64,000 nucleotides of DNA from assembly GCF_002814095.1 (NCBI RefSeq), contig NZ_CP021913.1, positions 1,178,001-1,242,000 of the forward strand, written 5' to 3'. Below are positions 25,057 through 42,510 of the stretch, piece by piece; the first letter of the stretch is position 1, and each line of letters starts with the position of its first letter. The notes under the pieces are model-generated. The model was given only the letters and a program-made list of their open reading frames with translations, made no database searches and was not told the origin of the DNA. The position numbers and the translations under genes were made by a program. The stretch comes from Sagittula sp. P11 (GTDB lineage Bacteria; Pseudomonadota; Alphaproteobacteria; Rhodobacterales; Rhodobacteraceae).

Positions 25057-26067
25057 ATGCAAAGGTTCATTCAGCGCCATCCGGTCTGGTCATTCATCAT
25101 CGCGCTCGGCGCGGCGATCCTGCTGTGGCTGATCTTCGCGCCGTGGTCCGCAGGCATGGAGGAGACCCTCGGCAAGAAGCGCGTCTTCCTGAACGGCATC
25201 TTCGGGGGCATCACGCTGGGCGCGCTCTATTTCCTCGTCGCCTCCGGCTTCACCCTGATCTTCGGCCTGATGCGCAACGTGAACCTCGCGCACGGATCGC
25301 TCTACCTGCTGGGCGGCTACCTAGGCTTCGAGATCTCGGAACGGACGGGATCGTGGTTCCTTGCCTTCCCGGTGGTCTTCGTCGTCGTCGGCATTGTGGG
25401 CATCGTCCTGCAGAACCAGGTCTTCCGCCGGATGGAGGGCGAGGAACTGCGCCAGACCATGGTCACCATCGGCCTGTCGGTGGTCATCGCCGACCTCCTG
25501 CTGTGGCAATGGGGCGGGCAGTCCTACACGATCTACGCGCCTGACCTGCTGTTCGGCCCGATGACCCTGCCCATCGTCTCGGACGTCCGCGACAGCGGAG
25601 AGGTCGTCTATCTCAACTATCCCGCCGTCCGCATGGCGATCCTCTTCGCCGCCATCGTCATCGGCGTCGGCATGTGGCTGGTGCTGAACAAGACCCGGCT
25701 GGGCATGCTGGTCCGCGCCGGCGTCGACGACCGCGAGATGCTGGCCGCCTCCGGCGTGCGCATCCAGTACGTCTTCCTCGCCGTCTTCGCATTCGGTGCG
25801 GGGCTTGCCGGCATGGCGGGCATCGTCGGCGGCACCTTCCAGTCGCTGTCGCCCGGCGAGGACACGCGCTTCCTGCTGGCCAGCCTCGTCGTCGTGATCG
25901 TCGGCGGCATGGGGTCGATCCCCGGCGCCGCCATCGGCGCGCTGATCATCGGGCTCAGCGAACAGCTCGGCCTGATCTACGCGCCCACATATTCGGTGGT
26001 CTTCACTTTCCTCATCATGGCCGTCGTGCTGGCCTTCCGGCCGCAGGGCCTTCTGGGACGGGGGTAG
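25057..26067 (+). CDS. ABC transporter permease, LivH type
   Basis: 336-residue inner-membrane subunit with about nine hydrophobic helices; first gene of the 17-gene operon. Family hallmarks: GALYFLVASGFTLIFGLMRNVNLAHGSLYLLGGY at the N-terminal third and GAGLAGMAGIVGG... VVVIVGGMGSIPGAAIGALIIGLSEQLG near the end, as in LivH/UrtB permeases. Together with the LivM-type partner it forms the membrane channel of a branched-chain amino acid- or amide-type importer; the true ligand is not indicated. Three bases separate it from the next gene. Confidence 0.9.
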   Translation: MQRFIQRHPVWSFIIALGAAILLWLIFAPWSAGMEETLGKKRVFLNGIFGGITLGALYFLVASGFTLIFGLMRNVNLAHGSLYLLGGYLGFEISERTGSWFLAFPVVFVVVGIVGIVLQNQVFRRMEGEELRQTMVTIGLSVVIADLLLWQWGGQSYTIYAPDLLFGPMTLPIVSDVRDSGEVVYLNYPAVRMAILFAAIVIGVGMWLVLNKTRLGMLVRAGVDDREMLAASGVRIQYVFLAVFAFGAGLAGMAGIVGGTFQSLSPGEDTRFLLASLVVVIVGGMGSIPGAAIGALIIGLSEQLGLIYAPTYSVVFTFLIMAVVLAFRPQGLLGRG

Positions 26068-26070
26068 CGC

Positions 26071-27120
26071 ATGGCACTGGCCGAAGACCAACCGAAGGAC
26101 GATGCCGAACCGCTCTGGGTCGAACGCGTGCCGCCCGCGTGGTGGGTGCTGGGCGTGATCCTCCTGACGATGCCCGCCTGGGCCAACGACTTCATCCTGT
26201 TCCAGGTGATGGGCTGGACCTTCATCCTCGGGATCATCGCCCTGTCGCTGATGTTCCTCGCGGGCTACGGCGGCATGGTCAGCCTGATCCAGATGTCGGT
26301 CGCGGCCACCGGCGGCTACATGGTGGCGATCTTCGGCAGCTCCGGGGCCGAGCTGAGCATGGGGCTGTCGTGGTGGATCTACCTGCCGCTGGCCATCCTG
26401 ATCGCGGCGATCTTCGGCACCATCGTCGGCGCGCTCGCCGTGCGGACGGAGGGGATCTACACCATCATGATCACCCTCGCCATCGCGGCGGCCTTCTTCT
26501 ACTTCACCCGGCAGAACTACACGATCTTCAACGGCTATTCCGGCTTCAACCTCGTGGTGCCGCCGGAGCTTTTCGGCATCGACTGGCGCCAGCCGACGCC
26601 ATTCTACTACCTGACGCTCGGCTGCGCGCTGGCCTGCTATGCCGCCGTGGCCTACGTCTCGCGCGCGCCCTTCGGACTGGCGCTGCAGGGCGTGCGCGAC
26701 AACCCGCGCCGCATGGCGGCACTCGGGTTCAACGTGACGGCGCACCGCGTGGCGGCCTACACCTTCGCCAGCGTCATCGCGGCCATCGGCGGCATTCTCC
26801 TCGTCTGGCAGAACGCCCAGATCGCCCCCGGCACGGCGGGCATCCCGGCGGTCATCGACATCCTCGTGATCGCCGTGGTGGGCGGCATCTCAAGGCCCAT
26901 CGGCGCCTTCATCGGCGCGCTGATCTACGTGCTGCTGCGGACCTTCTCGCCCGACGTTCTGCTGGCCTTCGGGCTGTCGGGCGAACGCTTCAAGCTGCTG
27001 ATCGGCCTGGGCTTCCTGGCGGTGGTCTTCTTCTCGCCCGACGGGGTGCTGGGCCTGTGGGAGCGCTGGCGCGCCCGCCGCGCCCGCCGGGGCGACCCCC
27101 TGACCGGAGAGAGCGAATGA
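26071..27120 (+). CDS. ABC transporter permease, LivM type
   Basis: 349-residue second permease. Typical LivM pattern: LFQVMGWTFILGIIALSLMFLAGYGGMVSLIQMSVAATGGY, VGALAVRTEGIYTIMITLAIAAAFFYF, GVRDNPRRMAALGFNVTAHRVAAYTFASVIAAIGGILL (EAA-like cytoplasmic loop contacting the ATPases) and VGGISRPIGAFIGALIYVLL. It ends in an arginine-rich tail. Its stop overlaps the start of the ATPase gene (ATGA), implying translational coupling. Confidence 0.9.
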   Translation: MALAEDQPKDDAEPLWVERVPPAWWVLGVILLTMPAWANDFILFQVMGWTFILGIIALSLMFLAGYGGMVSLIQMSVAATGGYMVAIFGSSGAELSMGLSWWIYLPLAILIAAIFGTIVGALAVRTEGIYTIMITLAIAAAFFYFTRQNYTIFNGYSGFNLVVPPELFGIDWRQPTPFYYLTLGCALACYAAVAYVSRAPFGLALQGVRDNPRRMAALGFNVTAHRVAAYTFASVIAAIGGILLVWQNAQIAPGTAGIPAVIDILVIAVVGGISRPIGAFIGALIYVLLRTFSPDVLLAFGLSGERFKLLIGLGFLAVVFFSPDGVLGLWERWRARRARRGDPLTGESE

Positions 27121-27914
27121 CCATGGTCGAGGACAGGCGCACCGCCGACTCGCTCGGCTCCGTCAGCTCCGGCAACGCGCTGGAACTCCGCGGCGTGTCG
27201 AAGCTTTTCGGCGCGCTCGCCGCGATCTCGGACGTGACGCTGACCGTCCGCTCCGGCGAACGCCGCGCGGTGCTGGGATCGAACGGCGCGGGCAAGACGA
27301 CGCTCTTCAACTGCGTGACCGGGGACTTCCTGCCGACCTCCGGCACGATCCGGCTGTTCGGCGAGGACGTGACCCGCTTCCCGGCCTACGAACGCATCCG
27401 GCGCGGCCTCAGGCGCACCTACCAGATCAGCCTGCTGTTCAACGGGCTGACCGTGGCCGACAACGTCTACCTCGCCTGCCGGGGCGTATCGCGCGGGCGG
27501 TTCTCCTTCCTCAGGGCGCGCGCCAACGACGCGCTGCTGACCCGCTCGGACGAGCTGATCGCCGCCGTGCACCTGACCGAATGGCGCGACACCTCCGTCG
27601 CCAACCTCAGCTACGGCCAGCAGCGGCAGCTCGAGATCGCGCTGGCGCTGGCGGGCGCGCCGCGGATCATCCTTTTCGACGAACCGGCGGCGGGCCTGTC
27701 GCCGACCGAGCGGGCCGAACTGGTGGCGATCCTCAACGGCCTGCCCGGCCACATCGGCTACATCATCATCGAGCACGACATGGACGTGGCCCTGCGCGTC
27801 GCGGAAAGCGTGACGATGATGCACAACGGGCGGATCTTCAAGGAAGGCACCCCTGAAGAGATCGAGAACGACGCGGAAGTCCAGGAACTCTACCTCGGAG
27901 GCGGCGATGAGTGA
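27117..27914 (+). CDS. ABC transporter ATP-binding protein, LivG type
   Basis: 265-residue cytoplasmic ATPase. Walker [10 protein letters not shown] (about residues 60-68), signature LSYGQQRQ (variant of LSGGQ), Walker [14 protein letters not shown] and the switch histidine in [11 protein letters not shown]. Order and length fit LivG/UrtD. Start ATG at 27117 overlaps the previous stop; a second in-frame ATG lies two codons on. It overlaps the next ATPase gene by eight bases. Partners: the LivH/LivM-type permeases and the fused LivF-type ATPase. Confidence 0.9.
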
Positions 27915-30105
27915 GCGCCGCGACACCCGCACCGGCCCCGCCGCGCTCGAGGTGCGCGGCCTCAACGTCTACTACGGCGCCTCGCACGCGCTGCAGGGCG
28001 TGGACCTGAGGCTGGAAAGCGGCGTGCTCTCGGTCGTGGGCCGCAACGGCATGGGCAAGACGACGCTCTGCAAGGCGATCATGGGGCTTGTTCCCGCCGC
28101 GTCGGGCGCCGTCAGTTTCGGCGGGCAGTCCCTGCTGGGCCGCTCCCCCGCCGAGATCGCGCGCATGGGCATCGGCTACGTGCCGCAGGGCCGCCGCCTG
28201 TGGCGGTCGCTCACCGTCGACGAACACCTGAAGATGGTGGAGAAGAATGGCGGCGCCTGGAGCTCGGAGCGCATCTATTCCACCTTCCCCCGGCTGGCCG
28301 AACGGCGGCGCAACGGCGGCGCGCAACTGTCCGGCGGCGAACAGCAGATGCTGGCCATCGCCCGCGCGCTTCTGGCCAACCCGCGCCTCCTCATCATGGA
28401 CGAACCGACCGAGGGCCTCGCCCCGGTCATCGTCTCGCAGGTCGAGTCGATGCTGCTGCAACTCGCCTCCGAGGGCGAGATGGACGTGCTGGTGATCGAG
28501 CAGAACATCGGCGTCGCCTGCGCCGTGGCCGACCGCGTGGCGATCATGGTCAACGGCCGCATCAACCGCATGGTGCCCGCCCGCGAACTGGCCGCCGACC
28601 GCGACCTGCAGCAGCGGATGCTGGGTGTCGGGCGCCACGCCCATGACGACACGCCCGAACCGCAGCCCGACGCCAGCGCCGAGGCGACACCGAAGGGCCA
28701 GCCGACGGGCCCCCGCTCCGTCAGGATCTACCTGTCGAACCCCAAGACGCCGACCCGCTGGTCGCAGCCCGTCCCGGTGCCGCAGATCGAACGCGCCGCC
28801 CGGGTCGTCACCACCGGCCAGCCCACCACCAGCGGGGTGGAGACGGCGCTGCGGCCGCTCTCCCCCTCGGGCGAGCAGGTGGTGCTGGTGGCGGGCACGC
28901 TCGACACCAAGGGGGCGGAACTGCGCTACATGCGCGACCAGATCCGCGCCGCCGGGCTGCCGGTGCGCATGGTCGACCTTTCGACCAGCGGCAGGCATTC
29001 CGGGGCAGAGATCCCCGCCCACCAGGTTGCCGCCTTCCATCCGCGCGGTGCGGCGGGCGTCTTCACCGACGACCGCGGACAGTCCGTCGCAGGCATGACC
29101 GAAGCGTTCCGCCGCTGGATGTCCCGGCAGGACGGCGTCCTCGGCATCCTCTCGGCAGGCGGCTCCGGCGGCACGGCCATCGTCGCCCCGGCGATGCGCG
29201 CCCTGCCCGTCGGCGTGCCGAAGCTGATCGTCTCCACCGTGGCCTCGGGCGAGGTGGCGAAGTACGTGGGCCCCTCCGACATCACCATGATGCACTCCGT
29301 CGCCGACGTGCAGGGCCTGAACGCCATCACCGAAGAGGTGCTGTCGAACGCCGCGCAGGCGATGGTCGGCATGGTGAAGGCCCGCAAGGCCGCGCCCGCC
29401 CGCACCTCGGCCAAACCCGCCATCGGCCTGACGATGTTCGGCGTAACCACGCCCGCGGTGCAGCAGATCGCGAAGGCGCTGGACGAAACCTTCGACTGCC
29501 TCGTCTTCCACGCCACCGGCATCGGCGGGCAGGCCATGGAGAAGCTGATCGACTCCGGCAAGATCGAAGGCGTCATCGACCTGACCACGACCGAGGTCTG
29601 CGACATGATGTTCGGCGGCGTCTTCCCCGCGACGGAGGATCGCTTCGGCGCGATGATCCGGCGGCGGATGCCCTACGTCGGCTCGGTCGGCGCGCTCGAC
29701 ATGGTGAACTTCGGCGCGCCCGACACCGTCCCCGAGAAGTACCGGGGCCGCACCTTCTACGAACACAACCCGCAGGTCACGCTGATGCGGACCACGCCCG
29801 AGGAATGCGCCAGGATGGGCCGCTGGATCGGCGCCCGCCTGAACGAGATGGAGGCGCCGGTGCGCTTCTTCCTGCCCGAAGGCGGCGTCTCGGCGCTCGA
29901 CGCGCGCGGCCAGCCCTTCGACGATCCGGCGGCGCGGCACGCGCTGTTCACCGCGCTGGAGGACACGGTCCGCCAGACCTCCACCCGCCGCCTGATCCGG
30001 CGGCCCGAGAACATCAACGACCCCGGGTTCGCCGCAGCCGTCGTCACCGCCTTCCGCGAGTTCCACGACGGCCGGCCCCCGACCCGCAAGGAGGCGCGCA
30101 GATGA
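27907..30105 (+). CDS. LivF-type ATPase fused to a Tm-1-like (UPF0261) domain
   Basis: 732 residues. Residues 1 to about 245 are a LivF/UrtE-type ABC ATPase (Walker [10 protein letters not shown], signature LSGGEQQ, Walker [22 protein letters not shown]). A proline-rich linker of about 75 residues follows. Residues 323-732 are a complete UPF0261/Tm-1-like domain ([92 protein letters not shown]). In plants Tm-1 binds tobamovirus replication proteins; the bacterial function is unknown, but the domain is usually encoded beside the TIM-barrel protein that follows here. The fusion ties this pair physically to the transporter. Confidence 0.88.
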
Positions 30106-30929
30106 TCGACCGACAGACCATCCTCTCGAAGTTCCGCGACATGGTCGCGCGGGGCGAACCCATCGTCGGCGGCGGCGCGGGCACCGGGCTTTCGGCCAAG
30201 TGCGAGGAAGCGGGCGGCATCGACCTGATCGTGATCTACAACTCCGGCCGCTACCGCATGGCCGGGCGCGGCAGCCTCGCCGGGCTGATGCCCTACGGCG
30301 ACGCCAACGCCATCGTGGTCGAGATGGCCTCCGAGGTGCTTCCGGTGGTGAAGCACACCCCGGTCCTGGCGGGCGTCTGCGCCACCGACCCCTTCCGCCT
30401 GATGGACAGGTTCCTGGACGAACTGAAGCGGATCGGCTTTGCCGGGGTTCAGAACTTCCCCACCGTGGGACTGATCGACGGCACCTTCCGCGCCAACCTC
30501 GAAGAGACGGGCATGGGCTACGGGCTGGAGGTCGACATGATCGCGAAGGCCCGGGAAAAGGACCTGCTGACAACGCCTTACGTCTTCGACGAGGACAGCG
30601 CCGCCGCCATGGCCGGGGCCGGTGCGGACATCGTCGTCTGCCACCTCGGCCTGACCACGGGCGGCTCCATCGGGGCAGAGACGGCGCTGACGCTGAACGA
30701 CTGCCCGGCGCTGGTGGACGCATGGGCCGAGGCCGCGCTGAAGGTCAATCCGGACGCCATCGTCCTGGTCCACGGCGGCCCGGTGGCGATGCCGGACGAT
30801 GCCGAATTCATTCTGAAGAACACGTCGAACTGCCACGGGTTCTACGGCGCCTCCTCGATGGAGCGCCTGCCGACCGAAGTGGCGCTGACGGATCAAACGC
30901 GCGCTTTCAAGGCCATCAAGGGCCGGTAA
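30102..30929 (+). CDS. TIM-barrel protein of the PEP-hydrolase-like / Tm-1-partner family
   Basis: 275-residue soluble protein, probable TIM barrel related to the phosphoenolpyruvate mutase/hydrolase superfamily (the predicted TIM-barrel signal-transduction family). Conserved pieces: [100 protein letters not shown] and [14 protein letters not shown]. Family members occur next to UPF0261 genes, and the Tm-1-like domain is the end of the preceding protein; the genes overlap by four bases (ATGA), so the two products very likely act together, perhaps as C-C or C-P bond-cleaving enzymes. Reaction not established. Confidence 0.82.
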
Positions 30930-30952: not shown

Positions 30953-33868
30953 GTGAGTGGCCAGATAATCGGACAACTGATCCTGTGGCTGATCATCGCC
31001 GTCGTGGTGATCGCGATCATCTACTGGGTGATGCAGTGGCTCTACCGGCGGTCGACAAAGGAAATCGCCTTCGTGCGTACGGGTTTCCTCGGCGAGAAGG
31101 TGGTGATCGACGGCGGCGCCTTCGTCTGGCCGATCGTGCACGACATCACCCCCGTGAACATGAACACCCTGCCGCTCGCGGTGGCGCGCACCCGTGAACA
31201 GGCGCTCATCACCAAGGACCGGATGCGCGTCGATGTCGAGGCCGAATTCTACGTCCGCGTCCGATCCGACAAGAGCTCCGTGTCGAAGGCCGCCGCAACC
31301 CTCGGCCGTCGCACGCTGGAGACGGAGCGCCTGAACGGCCTTCTGGCAGGCAAGTTCGAAAGCGCCCTGCGCGCCGTCGCCGCCGAGATGTCGATGGGCG
31401 AGATGCACGAGAACCGCGGCGCCTACGTCACCCGCGTCCGCGAGCAGGCACAGGAGGATCTGGAGAAGAACGGGCTGGAACTGGAAAGCGTCGCGATCAT
31501 CGACATCGACCAGACCGGCCTCGAATACTTCAACCCGTCCAACCGCTTCGACGCGGAGGGCCTGACCGTCCTGATCCGCGACATCGAGGACCGCCGCAAG
31601 CTGCGCAACGACATCGAGCAGGACTCGATGATCCTGATCCGCACCCGCAATCTGGAGGCCGAGAAGCAGGTGCTGGAGATCGAACGCGCCAGCGAGGAGG
31701 CCCGCCTGAGCCAGGAGCGCGACGTGGAGACCCGCCGCGCCCAGCAACGTGCCCAGATCGCCCGCGAACGCGCCGAACGCGAGACGGAGGCCGAAAGCGC
31801 CCAGATCACCGCGCAGGAGACCATCGAACGCGCCCGCATCGCCAACCAGCGCGCCGTGGCCGAGGCCCGCATCGCCTCCGAACGCGAGATCCGCGCCCGC
31901 GAGATCGCCCGCAAGAAGGAGGACGACGCCGACGAGATCGCCGCGCAGGAAGCCACCGAAACCGCGCGCATCCTGCAGGAACGCGCCGTCCGTCAGGCCC
32001 GCATCCAGAACGAGCAGGAAACCCAGGCCCGCGAGATCGAACGCCAGCGCGCCATCGACGAGGCCGAGATCTCGGCCCGCGAGGTCATCGAACGCGCCCG
32101 CATCGAACAGGAAAAGGCCCTGTCGGAGGCCCGCATCGCCAAGGAGCGCGAGACCCAGTCGCTCGAGATCGAGCGGCAGAAGTCCGTCCGCGACGCGGAG
32201 ATCGCCGCCAACGAGGCCAACGAGAAGCGGCGCATGGCGCAGGACCTCCTGCTGGCCCAGACCCGCATCAAAGGCGAAGAGGACATCCGCCAGCGCGAGA
32301 TCGCCCGCCAGCAGGCGCTGGACGAGGCAGAGATCGCCGCGCGCGAGACCGTCGAACGGCTGCGCATCCTGCAGGACGCCCAGATCAGCGAGGCCCGCAT
32401 CGCCGAGGACCGCCGCATCCGCGAACTGGAGATCGCGCGCAGGCAGGCGGTCGAAGCCGCCGAGATCGCGGCGGACGAGGCCGTCGAGGCCGCCCGCATC
32501 GCCCGCGAAAAGCAGATCGCCGCCACCCGGATCGAGGCCGACGGCGACACCACCACGCGCGAGATCGCCCGCAACCGCACCATCGACGAGGCCCGCGTTG
32601 CCGCCGACGAGGCGGTGGAACAGGCCCGCATCGCGCAGCGCCGCGCACTCGAAGCCGAACGCATCGCCGCCGACCAGGAAGTGCGCGCCCGCGAGATCGA
32701 CAAGGAGCGCGAGCTGGAGAACGCCGAGATCGCCCGCCGCGAGGCCGTCGAGAAAGCCCGCGTCGCCTCGGAACTGGCGCTGGAGCAGGAGCGCATCGCC
32801 AGCCAGAAATCGCGCGAGGTGGCCGACATCGAACGCCGCCGCAACGTCGAGCAGGCCGAGGAACGCCGCGTGATCCAGCTGGCCGACACCAAGGCAGAGC
32901 GCGCCGCCGCCGAGGCCAACGTGCGCGAGGCGGAGGTCATCGCCCGCCGTGCCGTCGAGAAGGCCGAGATCGAGCGCGAGCGCGCGCTCGAGACCGCCCG
33001 CCTCGAACGCCGCCGCGCGCTGGAACAGCTCGAGGTCGCCCGCGTCCAGACCCTGCGCGAGGCCGAGATCGCCAGCCAGGAAGAGGTGGAGCGCGCCCGC
33101 ATCGCCTCCGAACGCGGGCTGGACGAGATCCGCATCGACCACGAGACCGTCCGCCGCCGGCTGGAGGTCGGGCGCGAGCGCGAGGTCGAGACCGCGCAGA
33201 TGGAAAAGGCCATCGCCCTCTACCAGAAGTCGCTGGAGGAAAGCGCCGCGCGGGCCGAGGCCGACGCCGCCCGTGCCCGTGCCGCCGAGGCCGAGGAAAA
33301 GGTCAAGACCGTGCGCGAGACGGAGGCCGCCAACCGCCGCAAGTCCATCGACGTGACCATGGCGGAAAAGGCCGCCGCCGAGGCGAAGCTGATCGCCGAG
33401 GGCGAGAAGGTCCGCAAGGCCGTGGAGGCCGAGGCCCAGAAGCTCATCAACGAGGCCGAGAACGTGCTCACCGACCCGGCGCGCGCCTCGCTCTTCCGTC
33501 GCAAGCTGCTGGAACACGTGGAGGGCATCGTCTCCGCCTCCGTCAAGCCGCTGGAAAAGATCCAGGACATCCGGATCATGCAGCTCGACGGGGTCACGGG
33601 CGGGGGCGGCAACCGCTCCGGCAGCCCCACGGACGAGGTCATCAACTCTGCGCTCCGCTACCGCGTGCAGGCGCCGCTGATCGACTCGCTCCTCGCCGAC
33701 ATCGGGATCGAGGGCGGCGGGCTGGCCAAGCAGGGCGGCCTGATCCGCGAGGCCTCCGACATGAAGCGCATCTCCGACGCGGTGGAGAAATCCGGCGGCT
33801 CAAGCTCGGGCTCGGGCGGCGGCGACGCGCCCGAGGGCGGGAAATCCGACACCGGGGGAAAGAAGTAG
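30953..33868 (+). CDS. Giant flotillin-like SPFH protein with 44-residue tandem repeats
   Basis: 971 residues, nearly twice a usual bacterial flotillin (about 500-550). One membrane helix (about residues 8-30), an SPFH/PHB domain (about 35-190; VRTGFLGEKVVIDGGAFVWPIVHDI), then an uninterrupted Glu/Arg/Ala-rich coiled coil to about residue 860, and a flotillin-like C-terminus (ALRYRVQAPLIDSLLADIG) with a Gly/Ser-rich tail. Residues 273-624 are eight exact-length 44-residue repeats. Flotillins polymerise into membrane scaffolds. The usual partner NfeD is absent; instead it sits inside a transport-oxidation operon. GTG start at 30953 with GGGGAGGG seven bases upstream; no ATG alternative. Confidence 0.88.
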   Translation: MSGQIIGQLILWLIIAVVVIAIIYWVMQWLYRRSTKEIAFVRTGFLGEKVVIDGGAFVWPIVHDITPVNMNTLPLAVARTREQALITKDRMRVDVEAEFYVRVRSDKSSVSKAAATLGRRTLETERLNGLLAGKFESALRAVAAEMSMGEMHENRGAYVTRVREQAQEDLEKNGLELESVAIIDIDQTGLEYFNPSNRFDAEGLTVLIRDIEDRRKLRNDIEQDSMILIRTRNLEAEKQVLEIERASEEARLSQERDVETRRAQQRAQIARERAERETEAESAQITAQETIERARIANQRAVAEARIASEREIRAREIARKKEDDADEIAAQEATETARILQERAVRQARIQNEQETQAREIERQRAIDEAEISAREVIERARIEQEKALSEARIAKERETQSLEIERQKSVRDAEIAANEANEKRRMAQDLLLAQTRIKGEEDIRQREIARQQALDEAEIAARETVERLRILQDAQISEARIAEDRRIRELEIARRQAVEAAEIAADEAVEAARIAREKQIAATRIEADGDTTTREIARNRTIDEARVAADEAVEQARIAQRRALEAERIAADQEVRAREIDKERELENAEIARREAVEKARVASELALEQERIASQKSREVADIERRRNVEQAEERRVIQLADTKAERAAAEANVREAEVIARRAVEKAEIERERALETARLERRRALEQLEVARVQTLREAEIASQEEVERARIASERGLDEIRIDHETVRRRLEVGREREVETAQMEKAIALYQKSLEESAARAEADAARARAAEAEEKVKTVRETEAANRRKSIDVTMAEKAAAEAKLIAEGEKVRKAVEAEAQKLINEAENVLTDPARASLFRRKLLEHVEGIVSASVKPLEKIQDIRIMQLDGVTGGGGNRSGSPTDEVINSALRYRVQAPLIDSLLADIGIEGGGLAKQGGLIREASDMKRISDAVEKSGGSSSGSGGGDAPEGGKSDTGGKK
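31769..32824 (+). repeat. Eight in-frame 132-base tandem repeats in the flotillin-like gene
   Basis: Units begin at 31769, 31901, 32033, 32165, 32297, 32429, 32561 and 32693, each 132 bases (44 codons) with no length variation. Consensus per unit: EIxRxxAxxxAEIAAxEAVE, then xARIxxExALxxARIAxExE, then a four-residue end such as TQAR. 44 is four hendecads of 11, a period typical of straight, untwisted coiled coils. Copies differ at many codons, so they are old or under repair rather than recent duplications. Confidence 0.85.
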
Positions 33869-34308: not shown

Positions 34309-34755
34309 ATGGTACACGTCGTCAAAAGCACCGTCCTCAACGCGCCGGTCGAAGCGGTCTGGGAGGTCCTGCGCGACTTCAACGGCCACGACGAATGGCA
34401 CCCGGCAGTGGCCGACAGCGTGATCGACCGGGGCTATCCTTCGGACAAGGTCGGCTGCGTGCGGCGCTTCCACCTCGCCGACGGATCGGAACTGCGCGAA
34501 CAGCTCCTGACGCTCTCGGACGCGGACATGGCCTTCAGCTACTGCCTCTTGGAAACGCCTGTGCCGCTGCTGAACTACGTGGCGCATGTCCGGCTGGCGC
34601 CGGTCACCGACCGCGACATGACCTTCTGGCACTGGGAAAGCCGCTTCGACACGCCCGCCGGGCGCGAGGCCGAGCTGAAGACCATGGTGGCCGAGAACAT
34701 CTACCAGGGCGGCTTCGACGCGGTCCGGGACTTCATGGGACTGGAGGCAGCATGA
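34309..34755 (+). CDS. SRPBCC-family protein 2, tandem paralogue
   Basis: 148 residues, same fold and many identical stretches as the preceding protein: WHP, PSDKVGCVR, FHL, LSD, LE-P-PL--YVA, and RLAPVTDRDMTFWHWESRF. The pair therefore arose by tandem duplication, and differences in the cavity-lining positions may give a heterodimer or two ligands. Two bases separate it from its paralogue, and its stop overlaps the next start by four bases (ATGA). Role inferred from neighbours: ligand or quinone shuttle or assembly factor for the molybdenum hydroxylase. Confidence 0.78.
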   Translation: MVHVVKSTVLNAPVEAVWEVLRDFNGHDEWHPAVADSVIDRGYPSDKVGCVRRFHLADGSELREQLLTLSDADMAFSYCLLETPVPLLNYVAHVRLAPVTDRDMTFWHWESRFDTPAGREAELKTMVAENIYQGGFDAVRDFMGLEAA

Positions 34756-35552
34756 CGACCGTCGAAACCTACCGCACGATGGAGGAGGCCTCCCGCGCCA
34801 TGGGTGGCGACGCGGCCTACCTCGGCGGCGGCACGCTGGTCATGCGCGCCGTGAACGAGGGCACCGCCCCCGCCCGGCTGGTCCGCGTCACCGATCCCGG
34901 GCTGACGCAGATCCGCGCGTCGGGCGACCGCATCACCATAGGCGCGGGCGTGACCATGGCCGACGTGCTGGCCAGCCGCGACCTCGACTTCCTGCACCCC
35001 GTGGCCCGGCTGATCGGCGGCCCGCAGGTGCGCAACATGGCGACCGTTGCGGGCAACCTCTTTGCCGACCACCCCTACGGCGACTTCGCCACCGCCCTTC
35101 TCGCGCTCGACGCGCAGGTGACGGGCGCGGGGCAGGCCGGCGCCCGCCCGGTGGCCGAGGTGCTGCGCAACCGCGACCGCGCCGGGCTGATCGCCTCGGT
35201 GGAGGTCACCCGCCCCCGCGACCGCCGCGCCTTCGGCTTCCTGAAGGTCAGCCGCGTGAAGCCCAAGGGCGTCTCCGTCCTGTCCATCGCCGCGCACCTG
35301 CCGCGCGAAGGCGGACGCATCCGCAACGCCCGCGTGGTCTTCGGCGCCATGGGACCGGCCCCGCTGCGCTCCGCCGGGGCAGAGCGCGCGCTCGAAGGCC
35401 ACGCCATCGACGCGCGCAGCATCGCCGATGCCGCCACCGCCGCGACCGAGGGGCTGGACCCGCCGACCGACCAGATCGCCTCCGGCTGGTACCGCCGAGA
35501 GGTCGCCGGCGTGCATCTCAAACGCCTCCTGACAGAGATGGAGCAGCGCTGA
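34752..35552 (+). CDS. Molybdenum hydroxylase FAD-binding subunit (CoxM/XdhB-like)
   Basis: 266-residue medium subunit of a xanthine dehydrogenase-family enzyme. FAD-binding features: AAYLGGGTLVMRAVNEG, RITIGAGVTMADVLAS, and PVARLIGGPQVRNMATVAGNLFADHPYGDF, the variant of the GGNLANASPAAD-type loop. It passes electrons from the 2Fe-2S clusters to an acceptor. GTLVMRAVNEG is a little different from the common GGTDLLV motif. Stop and next start overlap by one base (TGATG). Confidence 0.88.
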   Translation: MTTVETYRTMEEASRAMGGDAAYLGGGTLVMRAVNEGTAPARLVRVTDPGLTQIRASGDRITIGAGVTMADVLASRDLDFLHPVARLIGGPQVRNMATVAGNLFADHPYGDFATALLALDAQVTGAGQAGARPVAEVLRNRDRAGLIASVEVTRPRDRRAFGFLKVSRVKPKGVSVLSIAAHLPREGGRIRNARVVFGAMGPAPLRSAGAERALEGHAIDARSIADAATAATEGLDPPTDQIASGWYRREVAGVHLKRLLTEMEQR

Positions 35553-36028
35553 TGGCCAGGACACCCGTCACCTTCACCCTGAACGGCACCTCCCGCTCGG
35601 CCTTTGCCGGAGAGGGCCAGAACCTTCTGGACTTCCTGCGCCGCGACGTGGGCGACATGACGCCCAAGTTCGGCTGCGGTCAGGGCACCTGCGGCGCCTG
35701 CACCGTGACGATAGACGGCAAGACGCAGCTTTCCTGCCTCGTGCTGGCCGAGGCCGTCGACGGGCGCGAGGTCAGGACCGCCGCGGGGCTGGCCGATGGC
35801 GTGACGCTCGACCCGCTGCAGCAGTCCTTCATGGACCATTTCGCGGCGCAATGCGGCTACTGCACGCCGGGAATGCTGGTCTCCGCCCGTGCGCTGCTGG
35901 ACCGCAACCCGCGCCCCAGCCGCGACGAGGTGATCGAGGCGATCTCGGGCAACCTCTGCCGCTGCACCGGGTACGAACCGATCATCACCGCGATCCTCGC
36001 CGTCGCCGAAGGGAGGGCCCGGGCATGA
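35552..36028 (+). CDS. Molybdenum hydroxylase 2Fe-2S subunit (CoxS-like)
   Basis: 158-residue small subunit with two [2Fe-2S] clusters. Plant-ferredoxin-type site CGQGTCGACTV plus a further Cys (LSCLV) in the N-terminal half; the helical C-terminal domain has CGYCTPGML and CRCTGYEPI. These are complete and canonical. It carries electrons from the molybdenum centre to FAD. Order medium-small-large is that of CO dehydrogenase-type operons. It overlaps the next gene by four bases. Confidence 0.93.
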   Translation: MARTPVTFTLNGTSRSAFAGEGQNLLDFLRRDVGDMTPKFGCGQGTCGACTVTIDGKTQLSCLVLAEAVDGREVRTAAGLADGVTLDPLQQSFMDHFAAQCGYCTPGMLVSARALLDRNPRPSRDEVIEAISGNLCRCTGYEPIITAILAVAEGRARA

Positions 36029-37731
36029 AGGACATGACCACCAGCGGACCGATGGTCGAGTTCCGCAAGGACCTCTTTGCCGACGAACGGGACGACAACC
36101 TGAACGAAGTGGGCAAGCCCACCCGGCGGCAGGACATCGTGGGCCACGTCACCGGGCGCTCGCCGTTCTTCGACGACCACCGCTTCGACGGGCTCCTGCA
36201 CATGCGCTGCGCCCGCTCGCCGCACCACCACGCCCGCATCCGGCGGATCGACACCTCGGCGGCCGAACGGATGCCCGGCGTCGTGCGCGTGCTGACAGGG
36301 CGCGACGTGCCGGTGAACCTCAACACCCTGCTGTCGCTCTTGGACTTCGGGCTGGACGACGAACCGATCCTCTCGGACAAGAAGGTCGCCTACATGGGTG
36401 AACCCGTGGCCGCCGTCATCGCCGCGACAGAGGCCGAGGCCCGCGCCGCCGCCGCCGCCATCCGCGTCGACTGGGAGGTCCTGCCCCACGTGCTCGACGT
36501 GGAAGAGGCGATCAAGCCCGGCGCGCCCGCCGTGCTCGACATCTATCCGGACAACAAGTTCGTCTACCACGGCAAGTACGACCACCAGAAGCTGCGCTAC
36601 GGCGACGTCGAAACCGCGTTGAGGCAGGCCGACCACGTCATCGAGGGGCGCTACCAGATGTCGCCGATCGAGCAGGCGCCGATCGAGACCTGCGGCGCCA
36701 TCGCCGCCCCCGAACAGAACGACCGCTACGTCTGCTACACCTCCACGCAGGCGCTGTTCTTCTCGCTGGGGACGGCGGCAAAGGTGCTGTCGATGCCCTC
36801 CTCGCGGCTGCATTTCATCGGCGGCACAGTGGGCGGCGGCTTCGGCGGCAAGGTGGATTCGATCCACGAACCGCTCGCCATCCTGGGCGCGATGATGACC
36901 GGGCGCCCGGTGAAATACGCCTGGGACCGCGCCGAAGAGATGCAGGTCGGCGCACCGCGCGGCGCCGAACGCTGGTACGTGACCGACGGCGTGATGAACG
37001 ACGGCCGCATCGTGGCGCGCAAGTTCACCGGCTATTTCGACGCGGGCGCCTACACCCGGCTCAGTTCCTACGCGATCATCAAGGGCGTCGGCCACCTGCC
37101 CGGCCCCTACACGATCCCCAACGTCTCGGCCAACGTGTACTGCGTGTATACCAACCGCACACCGGCCACCGCCATGCGGGGCTTCGGCATCACCGGCGTC
37201 GATTTCGCCATCGAGGCGCATATGGACAAGGTGGCGGAGGCCGTGGGCATGAACCCCGTCGAGCTGCGCATCCTCAACGCCTACCGCGACGGAGACATGA
37301 AGGCGCACAGGCGGCTGGCCAAGAACTGCGCGCTGATCGAATGCGCGCAGGTGGTGGCGGAGAAGGCGGGCATCAACCTGTCGCCAGCGCTGAAGGCCGC
37401 CTCCTCGCTGAAGGACGGCGGCGGCGCGCGGGCGGAACTGCCGCGCCACACCGTCACAGACGAGGACGGCCGCGTGCAGGGCTTCGCCGCCACCAGCTAT
37501 GCCCGCAAGGGGGGCGCGGACAGCGCGCCGCTCGCCCCGCCCACGCCCCGCGCGCCCGCCGCGCCGCCGCCCGCACGACCCTCGGCGCAGCAGCCGCAGA
37601 CCTCGTCCTACACCCCGCCGCAACCGCCCCCGCAGCCCGCCGCACCGGACCGGCCCGAAAGGCCCGCGCCCAAACCGTCCCGTTCGGGCGCGATGCGGTT
37701 CTCCTCCCTCTCTGGTTTCAGGAGGCGCTGA
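36025..37731 (+). CDS. Molybdenum hydroxylase large subunit, N-terminal half, with proline-rich tail
   Basis: 568 residues covering the N-terminal part of a normally single ~750-800-residue molybdopterin subunit: GRSPFFDDHRFDGLLHMRCARSPHHHARI, GGGFGGK (about residue 270), and TPATAMRGFGITGVDFAIEAHMD. The motif reads AMRGFG, not the AYRCSFR of form I CO dehydrogenase, so it is a different hydroxylase. After DMKAHRRLAKNCALIECAQVV the chain departs into an Ala/Pro-rich tail of about 65 residues ending SGFRRR. The remainder of the subunit is the next gene, with its own ribosome site. Substrate unknown; probably a heteroaromatic or aldehyde. Confidence 0.85.
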   Translation: MKDMTTSGPMVEFRKDLFADERDDNLNEVGKPTRRQDIVGHVTGRSPFFDDHRFDGLLHMRCARSPHHHARIRRIDTSAAERMPGVVRVLTGRDVPVNLNTLLSLLDFGLDDEPILSDKKVAYMGEPVAAVIAATEAEARAAAAAIRVDWEVLPHVLDVEEAIKPGAPAVLDIYPDNKFVYHGKYDHQKLRYGDVETALRQADHVIEGRYQMSPIEQAPIETCGAIAAPEQNDRYVCYTSTQALFFSLGTAAKVLSMPSSRLHFIGGTVGGGFGGKVDSIHEPLAILGAMMTGRPVKYAWDRAEEMQVGAPRGAERWYVTDGVMNDGRIVARKFTGYFDAGAYTRLSSYAIIKGVGHLPGPYTIPNVSANVYCVYTNRTPATAMRGFGITGVDFAIEAHMDKVAEAVGMNPVELRILNAYRDGDMKAHRRLAKNCALIECAQVVAEKAGINLSPALKAASSLKDGGGARAELPRHTVTDEDGRVQGFAATSYARKGGADSAPLAPPTPRAPAAPPPARPSAQQPQTSSYTPPQPPPQPAAPDRPERPAPKPSRSGAMRFSSLSGFRRR

Positions 37732-38753
37732 TGACCGTCCACCGCGGCCGCGGCTTCGCGGCGATCAACTATCCCATCGGCATGAACCTCGGCGGCGACC
37801 CGAGCCAGGCGCTGGTGCATTCCAACCCCGACGGCAAGTTCACCGTCGCCCTCTCGGCCATCGACCTCGGGCAGGGGATGAAATCCGTCACCCGCCAGAT
37901 CGCCGCCGAAACCCTCGGCGTCCCGGTCGAGGACGTCTATGTCGACACCGCCGACAGCGACACCGGCCCGCACGACATGGGCTCCTTTGCCTCGCGCGGG
38001 ACGCACCGCATGGGCAACGCCGTGATCCGCGCCTCCGAAGAGGCCCGGCAGGTCATGCTGGAGGCCGCCGCCGAAGAGCTGGAGGTCGACGCGGGCGACC
38101 TCGTGACCGATGGCAAGGGCAACATCCACGTGAAGGGCGCGCCCTCGCGGTCGATCACCACCATGGCCGCCAGCCAGGCGGCGCAGTTCAAGCAGGGCCG
38201 CACCATCGCCGGGCGCGGCATCTTCCTGATCCCGCTGTCCGAGGTCGATCCCGAAACCGGCGAGATGTCCCCGGTCACCACCTTTGCCCATGCCGCCATG
38301 CTGGTCACGGTGGAGGTCGACGACGAAACCGGAGAGGTCACCGTCACCGACATGCAGTCCGCCTACGAGGTGGGACGCGCGCTCAACCCCAAGCTGGTGG
38401 AACAGCAACTGCGCGGCGGCGCGTGGATGGGGATGAGCCACGCCGCATGGGAGACGACCGAACCCTACTACCCCACCCGCGACAACCGGCCCGAGGACTT
38501 CAACACATACCTCATGCCGGGACCGGGCGATCTGGCGCCGCATCACATCTCGATCCTCGAACGGCCGGCCGAGGACGGCCCCTACGGCGGCAAGGGCCCG
38601 GGCGAGATGTGCGCCAACCCGGTGCTGCCGGCGGTGGTCAACGCGGTCTACGACGCGGTGGGCGTGCGCATCGACGACCTGCCCGTGACCCCGGAAAAGG
38701 TGCTGCGCGGCATCCGCGCGCTTGGCGGCGCGAAACCCCGGCAGGCGCTCTGA
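37731..38753 (+). CDS. Molybdenum hydroxylase large subunit, C-terminal half
   Basis: 340 residues holding the second half of the molybdopterin subunit: GRGFAAINYPIGMNLGGDPSQALVHSNPDGKFTVALSAIDLGQG (cofactor-binding QG region), SRGTHRMGNAV and the active-site loop KGPGEMC with the catalytic base Glu292. The split is clean: TGATG overlap, and GGAGG (37721-37725) placed correctly before the ATG. Both halves keep all expected motifs, so they are likely to assemble as one functional subunit rather than be a degraded gene. Confidence 0.87.
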   Translation: MTVHRGRGFAAINYPIGMNLGGDPSQALVHSNPDGKFTVALSAIDLGQGMKSVTRQIAAETLGVPVEDVYVDTADSDTGPHDMGSFASRGTHRMGNAVIRASEEARQVMLEAAAEELEVDAGDLVTDGKGNIHVKGAPSRSITTMAASQAAQFKQGRTIAGRGIFLIPLSEVDPETGEMSPVTTFAHAAMLVTVEVDDETGEVTVTDMQSAYEVGRALNPKLVEQQLRGGAWMGMSHAAWETTEPYYPTRDNRPEDFNTYLMPGPGDLAPHHISILERPAEDGPYGGKGPGEMCANPVLPAVVNAVYDAVGVRIDDLPVTPEKVLRGIRALGGAKPRQAL

Positions 38754-39634
38754 TGGTGGTGCGGCGCGCGATACAGGGCATCGACGGTCCCGAACCGCTG
38801 ACGCAATTGCTGGGCGACGCCCAGTACATTGCCGACGCCGGGCTCGCCACCGCCGCCTACCTGTCGCTCGCCCTCGGCAAGCCGCTGCTGCTGGAAGGCG
38901 CCCCCGGCGTCGGCAAGACGGAGGCGGCCAAGGCGCTGGCCTCCGTGCTCGGGCGCGAACTGGTGCGCCTGCAATGCTACGAGGGCATCGACGCCGCCGC
39001 CTCCATGTACGAATGGAACTTCCCCCGGCAGATGCTGGCGATCCGGCAGGCGGGCGACGAGTACGTCAACCTCTACGACGACCGCTTCCTGATCGCGCGG
39101 CCGATCCTGCAGGCGCTGGAGGCGCCGCGTGACCGCGTCCTCCTGATCGACGAGATCGACCGCGCCGACCACGAGTTCGAGGCCTTCCTGCTGGAATTCC
39201 TGTCCGACTTCACCCTGTCGATCCCCGAACGCGGCACCGTCCGGGCAGAGGAGCCGCCGGTTGTGATCCTCACCTCCAACCGCACCCGTGAACTGCACGA
39301 GGCGCTCCGGCGGCGCTGCATCTACCACTGGATCGGCTATCCCTCGCCCGAGCTCGAGCAGCGCATCGTCATGATGCGCGCCTCCACCGTGGCGGAGGAC
39401 ACCGCGCGCCGCGTCGTGGCCGCCGTCAATGCGCTCCGGGCGGAACCGCTGGCCAAGCCGCCGGGCGTGGCGGAAACCGTGGAATGGGCCGAGGCCGCGA
39501 CGCTTCTGAACCGGGGCGGCGGACCATGGCCCCGCGCCTTCGCCCGCGCCATCGGGGTGGTGCTGAAGGATCAGGACGACCTCGACTACATCGCGCCCCG
39601 CATCGACGCCATCCTGTCGGAGAGCGCCGCATGA
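38753..39634 (+). CDS. MoxR-family AAA+ ATPase (CoxD-like)
   Basis: 293-residue AAA+ chaperone. Walker A GAPGVGKT (residues 49-56), Walker B VLLIDEIDRAD, sensor LTSNRTRELHEALRRRC (LTSN, CIYHWIGYP). CoxD of Oligotropha converts apo-CO dehydrogenase to active enzyme by inserting sulfur and copper; MoxR ATPases generally act with VWA proteins, as encoded by the next gene. It thus probably matures the split hydroxylase above. Overlaps both neighbours by one and four bases. Confidence 0.9.
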   Translation: MVVRRAIQGIDGPEPLTQLLGDAQYIADAGLATAAYLSLALGKPLLLEGAPGVGKTEAAKALASVLGRELVRLQCYEGIDAAASMYEWNFPRQMLAIRQAGDEYVNLYDDRFLIARPILQALEAPRDRVLLIDEIDRADHEFEAFLLEFLSDFTLSIPERGTVRAEEPPVVILTSNRTRELHEALRRRCIYHWIGYPSPELEQRIVMMRASTVAEDTARRVVAAVNALRAEPLAKPPGVAETVEWAEAATLLNRGGGPWPRAFARAIGVVLKDQDDLDYIAPRIDAILSESAA

Positions 39635-40728
39635 CCCCGCGCGCGCTCGCCCCCTTCCTCGCCTTCCCGCAGGCGCTCCGGGCCGCCGGTTTCCCGGCCA
39701 CGCCCGACCGGACAGAGACCTTCATCACCGCCGTGGGCCTCCTTGGTCCGCGCGACATGGCCGCCATCCGCCGCGCCGCCCACGCGGTCTACGGGCCGGG
39801 GCCGGACCGGCAACTGATGTTCGACACCGTCTTCGACCACGTCTTCCTCGGCCGCAGCCTCGCCGCGCCCGCCCCGGGCGACCCCGAAGACCTGCCGCGC
39901 AGCTACGACGCCGGCGACTTCGAGGAACTGCCCGTCCCCGACGAAGAGGACCCCTCCGGCGGAGAGGCCACCGCGGCGGAGCGGCTCTTTGCCCGCGAAC
40001 TGGCCGCCGGGGACGAGGACGCCCTGCTGCGCGCCTTCGCCCGCGCGCTGCCGAACCGCCTGCCCCATCGCCGCGCCCGGCGCATGAGCAAGGGCAAGGG
40101 CCGCCACCCCGACCCGCGCCGCGCCTTCCGGCAGATGATGCGCCGCGACGGCGAGATCACCCGCCTGCCGACCCGCCGCCGCATCACCCGCCAGCGCCGC
40201 GTCCTGCTGCTGGTCGATGTCTCCGGCAGCATGAAGTCCAGCACCGAAGGCGCCCTGCGGCTGGCCCACGCGCTGCAACAGGGCGGCGAACGGGTGGAAT
40301 GCTTCACCCTCGGCACAAGGCTGACCCGCGTGACCCGCGCGCTCCGCCACCGCAACCGCGAACAGGCGCTGACGCTGGCCTCCGGCCTCGTGGCGGACTG
40401 GGACGGCGGCACCCGGCTGGGCGAGGCGCTGCAGGTCTTCCTGTCGATCCCGCGCTTTGCCGCCCATGCCCGCGGCGCGCTGGTCATCCTGCTCTCGGAC
40501 GGGCTGGAACGCGGGGGGCCGGAGGCGCTGACCGGCGCCATGGAACGGCTGAGCGCGTTGGCGTGGTCGGTGCTCTGGCTCTCTCCGCTGGCCGCCGACC
40601 CCGCCTACCGGCCGCAGACGGAGGCGATGCGCGCCATCCATCCCCTGCTCGACCGGCTGGGCGCAGGCGACACACCCGCATCCATCGCCGCCGAGATCCT
40701 CGACTTCCGGAAAGGAGCGCGCGCATGA
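39631..40728 (+). CDS. VWA-domain protein (CoxE-like)
   Basis: 365 residues. N-terminal helical part (FPQALRAAGFPATPDRTETFITAVGLL, LFDTVFDHVF-like) as in CoxE/PF05762 proteins, then a VWA domain with MIDAS site LLLVDVSGSMKSS (D196) and LILLSDGLERG. Partner of the MoxR ATPase in maturation of the molybdenum enzyme. Cytoplasmic, no signal peptide. Translation coupled to both neighbours (ATGA overlaps). Confidence 0.88.
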   Translation: MTPRALAPFLAFPQALRAAGFPATPDRTETFITAVGLLGPRDMAAIRRAAHAVYGPGPDRQLMFDTVFDHVFLGRSLAAPAPGDPEDLPRSYDAGDFEELPVPDEEDPSGGEATAAERLFARELAAGDEDALLRAFARALPNRLPHRRARRMSKGKGRHPDPRRAFRQMMRRDGEITRLPTRRRITRQRRVLLLVDVSGSMKSSTEGALRLAHALQQGGERVECFTLGTRLTRVTRALRHRNREQALTLASGLVADWDGGTRLGEALQVFLSIPRFAAHARGALVILLSDGLERGGPEALTGAMERLSALAWSVLWLSPLAADPAYRPQTEAMRAIHPLLDRLGAGDTPASIAAEILDFRKGARA

Positions 40729-41609
40729 CCATCGTCGATGCACATTTCCACGTCTGGCGGCAGGACGACCTGCCTTGGCTCAAGGGCCCCATGCAGCCGC
40801 GCATCTTCGGCCCCTACGAACCGATCCGCCGCGACTACCCGATGAGCGAATACCTCGACGACATCGCGGGCACCGGCGTCACCAGATCCGTCTACGTGCA
40901 GGCCAACTGGCCCACCGACCGGGCCGAGGACGAGGCCGCCTGGATCGAGAGCCTGATCGCCGAAACCGGCTGGCCCCACGGCCTCGTCGCCTATGCCGAC
41001 ATGGGCGCGGAGGACGTGCGCCCCGCCCTCGACCGGCTGGCCCGCTTCCCGCACCTGCGCGGCATCCGCCAGCAGTTCCACTGGCACCAGAACCCCACCT
41101 ACCGCTTCGCGCCCCACGCCGACCTCTGCCGCGATGCGACCGTGCAGAAGAACGTCGCGCGGCTGGCGGACTACGGCCTCGTCTTCGACCTGCAGGTCTT
41201 CGACGACCAGATGGACGGCGCCTGCGCGCTTGCCCGCGCCTGCCCGGACGTGACCTTCGTGCTGCAGCACGCGGGCATGCTGGAAGACACCTCCGACGCG
41301 GGCCGCGCCAAGTGGCGCACCGCGATGGAGGGGCTGGCCGGGTGTCCCAACGTGGTCTCCAAGCTCTCGGGCTTCGGCACCTTCCAGCACCGGCTCGACC
41401 CCGACCTCATCGCCTGGCTGACCACCGAAACCGTGGGGATGTTCGGCGCCGACCGCTGCCTCTGGGGATCGAACTTCCCCATCGAGAAGCTCTGGACCGA
41501 CTACACCGCCCTGATCGAGGCGCACCGCCGCGCCGCGGGCGGGCTCAGCGCCGCCGAACAGCAGGCGATTTTCCATGACACGGCCACCCGGGTCTACCGG
41601 CTGGCGTGA
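40725..41609 (+). CDS. Amidohydrolase family 2 protein
   Basis: 294-residue TIM-barrel metal hydrolase. N-terminal VDAHFHVW (D5, H7, H9) binds metal; further expected ligands are FVLQHAGML (His) and LWGSNFPIEK (Asp position is N in GSNFP, as in many lactone hydrolases of the family). Closest general type: COG3618-like lactonases/4-sulfomuconolactone hydrolases and dicarboxylate lactonases. Within the operon it could open a lactone or amide formed after hydroxylation. Overlaps coxE-like gene by four bases. Confidence 0.85.
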   Translation: MTIVDAHFHVWRQDDLPWLKGPMQPRIFGPYEPIRRDYPMSEYLDDIAGTGVTRSVYVQANWPTDRAEDEAAWIESLIAETGWPHGLVAYADMGAEDVRPALDRLARFPHLRGIRQQFHWHQNPTYRFAPHADLCRDATVQKNVARLADYGLVFDLQVFDDQMDGACALARACPDVTFVLQHAGMLEDTSDAGRAKWRTAMEGLAGCPNVVSKLSGFGTFQHRLDPDLIAWLTTETVGMFGADRCLWGSNFPIEKLWTDYTALIEAHRRAAGGLSAAEQQAIFHDTATRVYRLA

Positions 41610-41637
41610 CGCAAGCGACGATAAACGGGAGGACACG

Positions 41638-42489: not shown

Positions 42490-42510
42490 TCCCGGCCAGA
42501 GGAGGACACC

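Follow-up and report, generated by a model that had tools for sequence, protein, structure and literature searches.

In a 64,000-nucleotide stretch of the Sagittula sp. P11 genome (NZ_CP021913.1, positions 1,178,001 to 1,242,000; hereafter the window), one gene encodes a protein of 971 residues which, judged from its domains, is a flotillin much longer than its ordinary relatives. The stretch between its SPFH and Flot domains, here called the wall, was found in this protein and its relatives to be quantised in whole hendecads, that is in steps of 11 residues, with rare slips of +3. We consider it moderately probable that this part of the protein is a helical-barrel wall, locked in register, and belongs to a very large membrane flotillin cage which serves the pathway encoded by the surrounding operon.

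Wall length changes in steps of 11 residues

Wall length was defined as the distance between the SPFH profile's end and the point where the Flot profile begins. The initial sample, 90 rows in all, was reduced to 87 by dropping second copies (L022, L069 and L023; L-numbers are locus labels for relatives) and was merged with 76 proteins measured among the best 80 of 552 matches of an SPFH alignment in named genomes. As for the remaining four, L128 has a frame of 1239 residues with no visible Flot domain; L125, L159 and L177 ran off their contigs. After removal of two identical sequences, 161 distinct proteins were left, with near-identical ones still among them. The class and phylum searches sampled larger groups evenly and the named giants are the best matches, so that frequencies within this set are not estimates. 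Proteins with a wall of at least 401 residues are referred to as giants (n = 86); 61 are ordinary and 14 middle-sized.

The first sample contained walls of 159, 170, 181, 192, 203, 214, 217, 265, 287, 313, 357, 547, 569, 580, 602, 610, 613, 734 and 745 residues, with the window's protein at 580. The 76 named giants spanned 401 (L187) to 866 residues (L134) and fell, modulo 11, into residue class 8 (50 proteins), class 5 (25) and class 2 (one); among the giants, frames complete at both ends measured about 801 to 1259 residues. Over all 161 proteins, 45 distinct wall lengths from 159 to 866 residues were present, and 155 walls occupied two of the eleven residue classes, namely class 5 (94) and class 8 (61). 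Five more were in class 1 and one in class 2, and seven classes were empty. Moduli 7 to 10, 12 to 15 and 18 showed no comparable bias in the same set. Ordinary flotillins followed the rule as well: 59 of the 61 were in class 5, and the other two had 217 residues. From a further 26 ordinary loci, seven without both domains were left out; all 19 that remained, including seven from other taxonomic classes of the phylum, were in class 5.

Distances from motif to motif, which are independent of the profiles, agreed exactly in all 85 usable proteins (76 of the 161 were unusable). As controls, Flot loops (n = 81) and tails (n = 96) had lengths in all eleven classes, the loops unevenly, with 29 of 81 in one class. 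An early Rayleigh statistic, on the first sample's 19 distinct lengths, was weak (0.482 at 11, 0.474 at 12; 201 of 20,000 jittered sets reached the value at 11) because these lengths occupy classes separated by three residues; modulus 11 became clear once the sample was larger. The long proteins L034 and L099 to L103, of 853 to 956 residues, gave weak Flot matches and lie outside the measured set.

A tree calculated with FastTree from the SPFH and Flot parts only, two short domains that leave many weak branches, grouped the 86 giants in one clade (support 99) beside a group containing the 313-residue class. Of 39 branch-disjoint changes in length, 33 were exact multiples of 11; if the 39 pairs are taken as independent and the chance for each as 1 in 11, the binomial p is 8e-29. 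Multiples of 44 made up 9 of these 33, which is the chance level. The first-pass annotation had proposed that the protein evolved by internal duplication of a 132-base unit; as an evolutionary quantum this 44-residue unit has to be abandoned, since the step of the wall is 11 residues.

Gap positions were determined in ten aligned close pairs. Within the wall, gaps of 44 (L137 against L138, at 96% identity, and L165 against L162), 88 (L156 against L170 and L130 against L124), 66 plus 22 (L121 against L122) and 11 residues (three pairs) were seen. Two wall gaps were not multiples of 11, 14 residues between L164 and L170 and 6 between L169 and L180; loop and tail, outside the wall, had gaps of 1, 2, 3, 7, 15 and 32 residues in the same ten pairs. 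L164 and L170 are 99% identical and differ in length class and in a 14-residue junction element, present in L170 and absent from L164.

Steps of 11 residues might also arise as a mere by-product of mutation, through slippage or unequal crossing-over on 33- or 132-base repeats, with the register itself under no selection. The DNA of the giants is indeed repetitive (median z of 5.1 at lag 33, n = 86), and for the extra 44-residue unit that distinguishes L138 from L137, DNA identity is 81% with the unit following it in L138 and 84% with the unit at the corresponding position of L137. We nevertheless judge this explanation quite improbable: the 61 ordinary flotillins obey the rule with DNA that is barely repetitive (median z of 1.5 at lag 33), the longest exact lag-33 run in the window is 12 bases, and the slip sits at the phase junction in the window and, in each of the 60 giants showing a slip, amounts to +3.

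Some shorter walls can be written as sums, 265 as 159 + 106, 287 as 181 + 106 and 217 as 170 + 47, and the strongest self-similarity of these proteins lies at lags 106 and 47. L094 to L098 form a separate flotillin group with walls of 265 and 287 residues and their top self-similarity at lag 106. Three giants, in L173, L181 and L187, come from records assigned to Granulosicoccaceae, Granulosicoccus and Arenicellales, which we take to lie outside the window's class. All three are metagenome assemblies, that of L187 being labelled a chromosome of 4.4 Mb, and either gene transfer or misbinning may account for them.

Hydrophobic register and the 44-residue units

The hydrophobic phase of the window's protein was constant from about residue 223 to 640, slipped by +3 and was constant again to about residue 780. 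The hendecads that the first-pass annotation had read in the repeat array are thus real, but the register extends well beyond it. All 59 giants of class 8 showed a slip of +3 from the proximal to the distal part, as did the single member of class 2; in all 26 giants of class 5 it was 0. A regular expression for the junction element matched 30 of the 59 class 8 giants, none of the 26 in class 5 and the one in class 2; the element is therefore not spelled alike in all of them.

In the twelve proteins with a 580-residue wall, 97% of the residues at hendecad position 2 and 74% at position 8 were large hydrophobics, with at most 10% at any other position. These two positions describe stripes 131 degrees apart on the helix; one arc bears a strip rich in alanine, and elsewhere charged residues prevail. 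For the same wall length, spectral power at 11/2, 11/4 and 11/5 residues (50, 46 and 29) exceeded that at 11/3 (5.6), and in place of the single continuous stripe of classical coiled coils two were found. Summed over harmonics, mean power in the 86 giants was 110.1 for a period of 11 and 2.1 for a period of 7, while other periods gave means of 1.4 to 5.6. Harmonics of 11 reached 61 in walls of 300 to 359 residues, 10.5 in walls of 260 to 289 and 13 in ordinary flotillins, where lag-11 identity is weak in individual proteins. A scan for one period per turn placed all 86 giants at 3.64 to 3.69 residues; of the ordinary and middle-sized proteins, just 4 of 61 and 3 of 14, respectively, fell there, and the harmonics of 11 were then used. 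A heptad coiled coil was ruled out by the harmonic power and by the low self-identity at lag 7 (z 2.6); a pure heptad register did not occur, in agreement with the hendecads first proposed.

Within this register lie eight 44-residue units free of indels, starting at residues 273, 317, 361, 405, 449, 493, 537 and 581, exactly as annotated at first pass; residue 273 opens at base 31769 and residue 624 closes at base 32824. Self-identity of the protein was 0.45 at lag 44 (z 17.8 against 300 shuffles), 0.46 at lag 88 (z 16.1) and 0.38 at lag 132 (z 11.8), with z values of 5.6 to 7.5 for the remaining multiples of 11 up to lag 121. Tandem Repeats Finder returned a single row within the array, a 33-base repeat in two copies, and was nearly blind to it because the DNA units have diverged; DNA identity at lag 132 was 60% against a background of 35%.

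The repeats are shared by relatives. With the 11 relatives of equal wall length, which complete the twelve in the set, the window's protein could be aligned without gaps through at least residue 880, and all twelve carry the same units, so that no relative of this length lacks the periodicity. Units at matching places in different species were on average 77% identical, non-matching units 43%. By this comparison the array is old, and a recent or concerted origin of the units was not supported. Close relatives do, however, show some changes of 44, 66 and 88 residues. The proposed enlargement is borne out, the 61 ordinary proteins having walls of only 159 to 217 residues, and, as the suggested comparison among relatives brought out, wall length does vary.

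The first-pass annotation had also taken the hendecads to favor a straight rod. The period agrees with this, but the presence of two hydrophobic stripes in each hendecad had been missed. Hendecads are also found in straight coiled coils of few strands. A rod of two to four strands, a stalk holding the cap far off the membrane instead of a cage wall, would lead to 11-residue quantisation equally well, and our structure predictions covered single chains. We think it unlikely, since the hydrophobic residues form two stripes rather than one, both ends of the protein match flotillin domains, for which the solved human relative is a barrel of 44 helices (PMC11260169, in its accessible parts), and ordinary flotillins with the same two ends follow the same rule. 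Two stripes would better suit a helix with two neighbors in a barrel wall.

Domains, operon and gene neighborhood

The flotillin assignment, already made at first pass, is supported by matches of the window's protein to Band_7 (PF01145; E = 5.9e-18, 66 bits against a cut-off of 23.6) and Flot (PF15975; E = 6.3e-31, 107.5 bits against 27). In a profile comparison of the first 215 residues with solved structures, human flotillin-1 and flotillin-2 came out on top (E = 2.8e-10 to 3.2e-5), ahead of stomatin and a stomatin homologue (8.8e-4 or worse). The protein scored 25.2 bits with the FloT equivalog NF058507, far under the cut-off of 700. Its N-terminal stretch is hydrophobic in 16 aligned proteins and was modelled as a helix (residues 3-33) by AlphaFold2 (AF2) at low confidence. 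The flotillin is single-copy in its genome. Among three other genomes of the genus, one had a protein with a Flot domain, of equal wall length; the closest relative from named genomes, again among the best 80 matches, was that of Sedimentitalea xiamensis (93% identity in the SPFH part). Coordinates are collected in the table below.

Table. Features of the giant flotillin and of its gene neighborhood (window coordinates; ORF, open reading frame)
Feature	Position	Strand	Basis
Giant flotillin (SPFH2-type), 971 residues, GTG start	30953..33868	+	ORF and Pfam
N-terminal hydrophobic (membrane) helix, about residues 9-30	30977..31042	+	sequence reading
SPFH / Band_7 domain, residues 41-186	31073..31510	+	Pfam PF01145
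Predicted wall helix, about residues 201-838	31553..33466	+	AF2
Hendecad stretch in a single phase, about residues 223-640	31619..32872	+	hydrophobic phase
Eight 44-residue units (4 x 11), residues 273-624	31769..32824	+	lag identity
Junction element REVADIERRRNVEQ, residues 621-634, followed by the +3 phase slip	32813..32854	+	relatives and phase
Distal hendecads in shifted phase, about residues 652-780	32906..33292	+	hydrophobic phase
Flot domain, residues 804-919	33362..33709	+	Pfam PF15975
ABC importer permease (LivH/UrtB-like)	25057..26067	+	PF02653; 63/63 loci
ABC importer permease (LivM/UrtC-like)	26071..27120	+	PF02653; 65/65 loci
ABC ATPase (LivF/UrtE-like) fused to UPF0261	27907..30105	+	PF00005, PF06792, PF23189; 67/67 and 71/71 loci
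PEP-hydrolase-like protein	30102..30929	+	PF09370; 72/72 loci
SRPBCC protein 1, first base directly after the flotillin stop codon	33869..34306	+	PF10604; 73/73 loci
SRPBCC protein 2	34309..34755	+	PF10604; two distinct SRPBCC places in 72/72 loci
Molybdenum hydroxylase FAD subunit (CoxM-like)	34752..35552	+	PF00941, PF03450; 70/70 loci
Molybdenum hydroxylase 2Fe-2S subunit (CoxS-like)	35552..36028	+	PF01799, PF00111; 67/67 loci
Large subunit N half, Pro-rich linker and RFSSLSGFRRR at its end	36025..37731	+	PF02738, PF01315; 51/51 loci
Large subunit C half, separate ORF	37731..38753	+	PF20256; also separate in 6 relatives
ORF with MoxR-type AAA ATPase in its 3' part	37499..39634	+	PF07728; NF047784 MadB_ATPase under cut-off
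VWA (CoxE-like) protein	39484..40728	+	PF05762

Neighbor genes were counted in the 76 measured named giants, each gene only where the flanking sequence sufficed. The ten genes tested were never missing, they lay on one strand in 76 of 76 loci and in one order in 75 of 76; in the exception, L169, the sequence ends inside the first SRPBCC gene. From the last flotillin codon to the match of the next gene there were 0 to 25 bases (median 3, 74 loci). This constancy bears on a further explanation, that the flotillin is a general membrane scaffold which happens to be located in the operon and whose wall length drifts without function. The spread of walls from 401 to 866 residues within a constant operon would agree with it, as would the pair L137 and L138, so close and yet one 44-residue unit apart. 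We regard it as rather unlikely, in view of the complete set of neighbor genes, their constant order and strand, and the short distance to the next gene.

The importer, UPF0261, PEP-hydrolase-like and SRPBCC genes were also found beside four loci of the 313-residue class and two with 192-residue walls; at one of the latter, L204, the PEP-hydrolase-like gene is some 6 kb distant. In the 20 kb inspected at these four and two loci no hydroxylase was seen; all six additional giant loci inspected had it. On the gene contents of these loci, the giant wall and the hydroxylase appear on the same stem; as this is a single origin, their co-occurrence is not a statistical association. Around walls of 265 and 287 residues (loci L200 and L201) and of 357 residues neither gene set was nearby, apart from one weak match to an ABC ATPase. 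No NfeD-type partner was seen among the neighbor proteins scanned, which did not cover every ORF of the operon. Such a partner is usual but not universal, SPFH2 genes without NfeD2 having been described in 17 genomes (PMC2636767, accessible text).

The large hydroxylase subunit is of the xanthine dehydrogenase type and split into two ORFs overlapping by one base (36025-38753). In all seven loci inspected, the N half ended in RFSSLSGFRRR or a closely similar peptide, borne on the Pro-rich linker; the C half started at or just after the stop of the N half. A frameshift was rejected, the halves being separate ORFs in all seven. N halves were complete in 20 of 75 stretches of fetched DNA, with 17 matching the tail pattern and three carrying related RRR tails, and ran off the end in the other 55. 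The tail is a putative docking peptide. The N half missed the cut-offs for CO dehydrogenase (TIGR02416, 165 bits against 991; NF040766, 170 against 950), which may be explained in part by the split, since this would lower the score of either half.

The fusion of ABC ATPase and UPF0261 adjoins the PEP-hydrolase-like gene and recalls plant Tm-1-like proteins, where UPF0261 is fused to a TIM barrel (PMC5028733, accessible part). Further downstream (40299-44073), the window encodes an amidohydrolase, a protein of the metallo-beta-lactamase fold and a fusion of SMP-30/gluconolactonase and isochorismatase; the metallo-beta-lactamase-fold gene recurs in L197, L199 and L205, the fusion in L199 and L205. 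These downstream genes suggest a longer catabolic cluster.

The proposed membrane cage and known systems

In the proposed explanation, the giant flotillin would be anchored in the membrane, with an SPFH foot and a Flot cap as in ordinary flotillins and a helix of about 640 residues between them. Many such helices, parallel and side by side, would form a single-layer barrel wall as in human flotillin. Because helices would be packed in this wall, only insertions of whole hendecads would be kept: an insertion would survive only if the residues behind it return to the same side of the wall, leaving height free and register fixed. The product would be a cage or basket of very large size, situated at the cytoplasmic side of the membrane, with a helix contour of up to about 95 nm. 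It would organize the operon's pathway, which includes the molybdenum hydroxylase and its genes of maturation type, by gathering the enzyme, lipid- or quinone-binding proteins and the importer. Both assembly into a cage and the pathway function are inferred. For CoxG of Oligotropha, a member of the SRPBCC superfamily, recruitment of CO dehydrogenase to the membrane has been proposed (PMC4240915, accessible part).

Structure prediction was in partial agreement. Residues 700-971 were modelled as one helix to residue 838, with a predicted local distance difference test score (pLDDT) of 91-98 up to about residue 829, and a second helix at 841-871. The AF2 model of the whole chain was mostly helical from 201 to 862. 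With a rise of 0.15 nm per residue, about 638 residues of wall helix give a contour of 96 nm.

Several observations weigh against the cage. Confidence for the whole chain was poor (pLDDT 62.5, predicted template modelling score 0.25), its helix was broken at 394-438 and 640-656, and the modelling covers single chains, no oligomer. A profile of the final 272 residues matched none of the solved structures. Six of the 39 changes in length were exceptions, five being 3 and one being 6 modulo 11. Phase and length class match in 85 of 86 giants; in the exception, L169 of class 2, the +3 slip is accompanied by a gap of six residues close to the boundary of the Flot domain. This match checks consistency and does not add an independent sample, because fixing the stripes at the two ends links phase and length class. 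Coiled coils other than a barrel could have a period of 11 as well. As to function, contact of the flotillin with the operon's products is hypothetical, and a sample of the best 80 of 552 matches favors a uniform operon. The giant wall is not needed for the core of the operon, since two flotillins with 192-residue walls share that core. The comparison with CoxG is an analogy, because both SRPBCC neighbors match PF10604 and the CoxG family was reported for neither.

How large such a cage would be can be extrapolated. According to the accessible part of a recent study (PMC12624060, 2025), subunit number in SPFH cages is a linear, increasing function of wall helix length (copies = 0.1782 x wall length + 10.22), the generality of this rule being left there as a matter of future interest; the wall helices compared in the accessible text of PMC11260169 span 44-189 residues. 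Applied to a wall of 580-638 residues, about threefold beyond these data, the regression would give 114-124 subunits and, with 109 kDa per subunit, 12-14 MDa. The spacing of the human cage (44 subunits in a 32 nm ring) would extrapolate to a ring of 83-90 nm. It is highly doubtful, if conceivable, that these are the largest SPFH membrane cages, with 114-124 subunits, a dome up to about 90 nm across and a compartment in which the hydroxylase is docked via RFSSLSGFRRR. If true, this would be a bacterial metabolic compartment made of flotillin, with its wall cut to whole hendecads.

For the question of what determines SPFH cage size, the family described here offers natural walls of about 400-870 residues with the same ends, making the rule linking copy number to wall length testable about threefold outside its range. 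The 11-residue rule is evidence, drawn directly from evolution, that flotillin walls have a fixed packing register, and it extends to ordinary flotillins, where the repeat is hard to see. The conserved operon provides a definite metabolic setting for a bacterial flotillin. A literature search, whose coverage leaves out most subscription papers and preprints, returned no report joining flotillin or SPFH with hendecads and no use of "giant flotillin"; within the same coverage, the matches listed held no link from flotillin to a molybdenum hydroxylase or to UPF0261 and PEP hydrolase.

The operon resembles the clusters of molybdenum-dependent CO dehydrogenase (coxMSLDEFG) in having SRPBCC genes and CoxM-, CoxS- and CoxL-like genes with MoxR-type and VWA (CoxE-like) genes downstream of the latter three. 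It differs from them in the split large subunit, in SRPBCC proteins of PF10604 and in the flotillin, UPF0261 and PEP-hydrolase-like genes that it includes. Ordinary bacterial flotillins are of the type of E. coli YqiK and B. subtilis FloT. The window's protein shares their Band_7 and Flot architecture and the 11-residue rule; its wall, however, is about three times longer, it falls below the FloT equivalog cut-off, and the neighbor proteins scanned include no NfeD type. Giant SPFH2 proteins (SPFH2b) of about 800-1000 residues with an expanded coiled coil have been known since 2009 (Hinderhofer et al., PMC2636767). The window's protein, a flotillin-type SPFH protein with 971 residues and a strongly expanded wall of 580, fits this kind; the quantised walls are new, the accessible text of that paper giving no repeat, hendecad, length rule or such operon, all of which were found here. 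The human flotillin-1/2 cage (PDB 9bq2 and 9l3g) has in common with it the SPFH domain, a long wall helix and a C-terminal cap region. According to the accessible text of PMC11260169, the human wall is a right-handed single-layer barrel of 44 parallel helices of 186 residues, without heptads, in a cage 22 nm high. The window's protein, in contrast, has an N-terminal membrane helix, large hydrophobic residues in two stripes and a predicted wall helix of about 640 residues.

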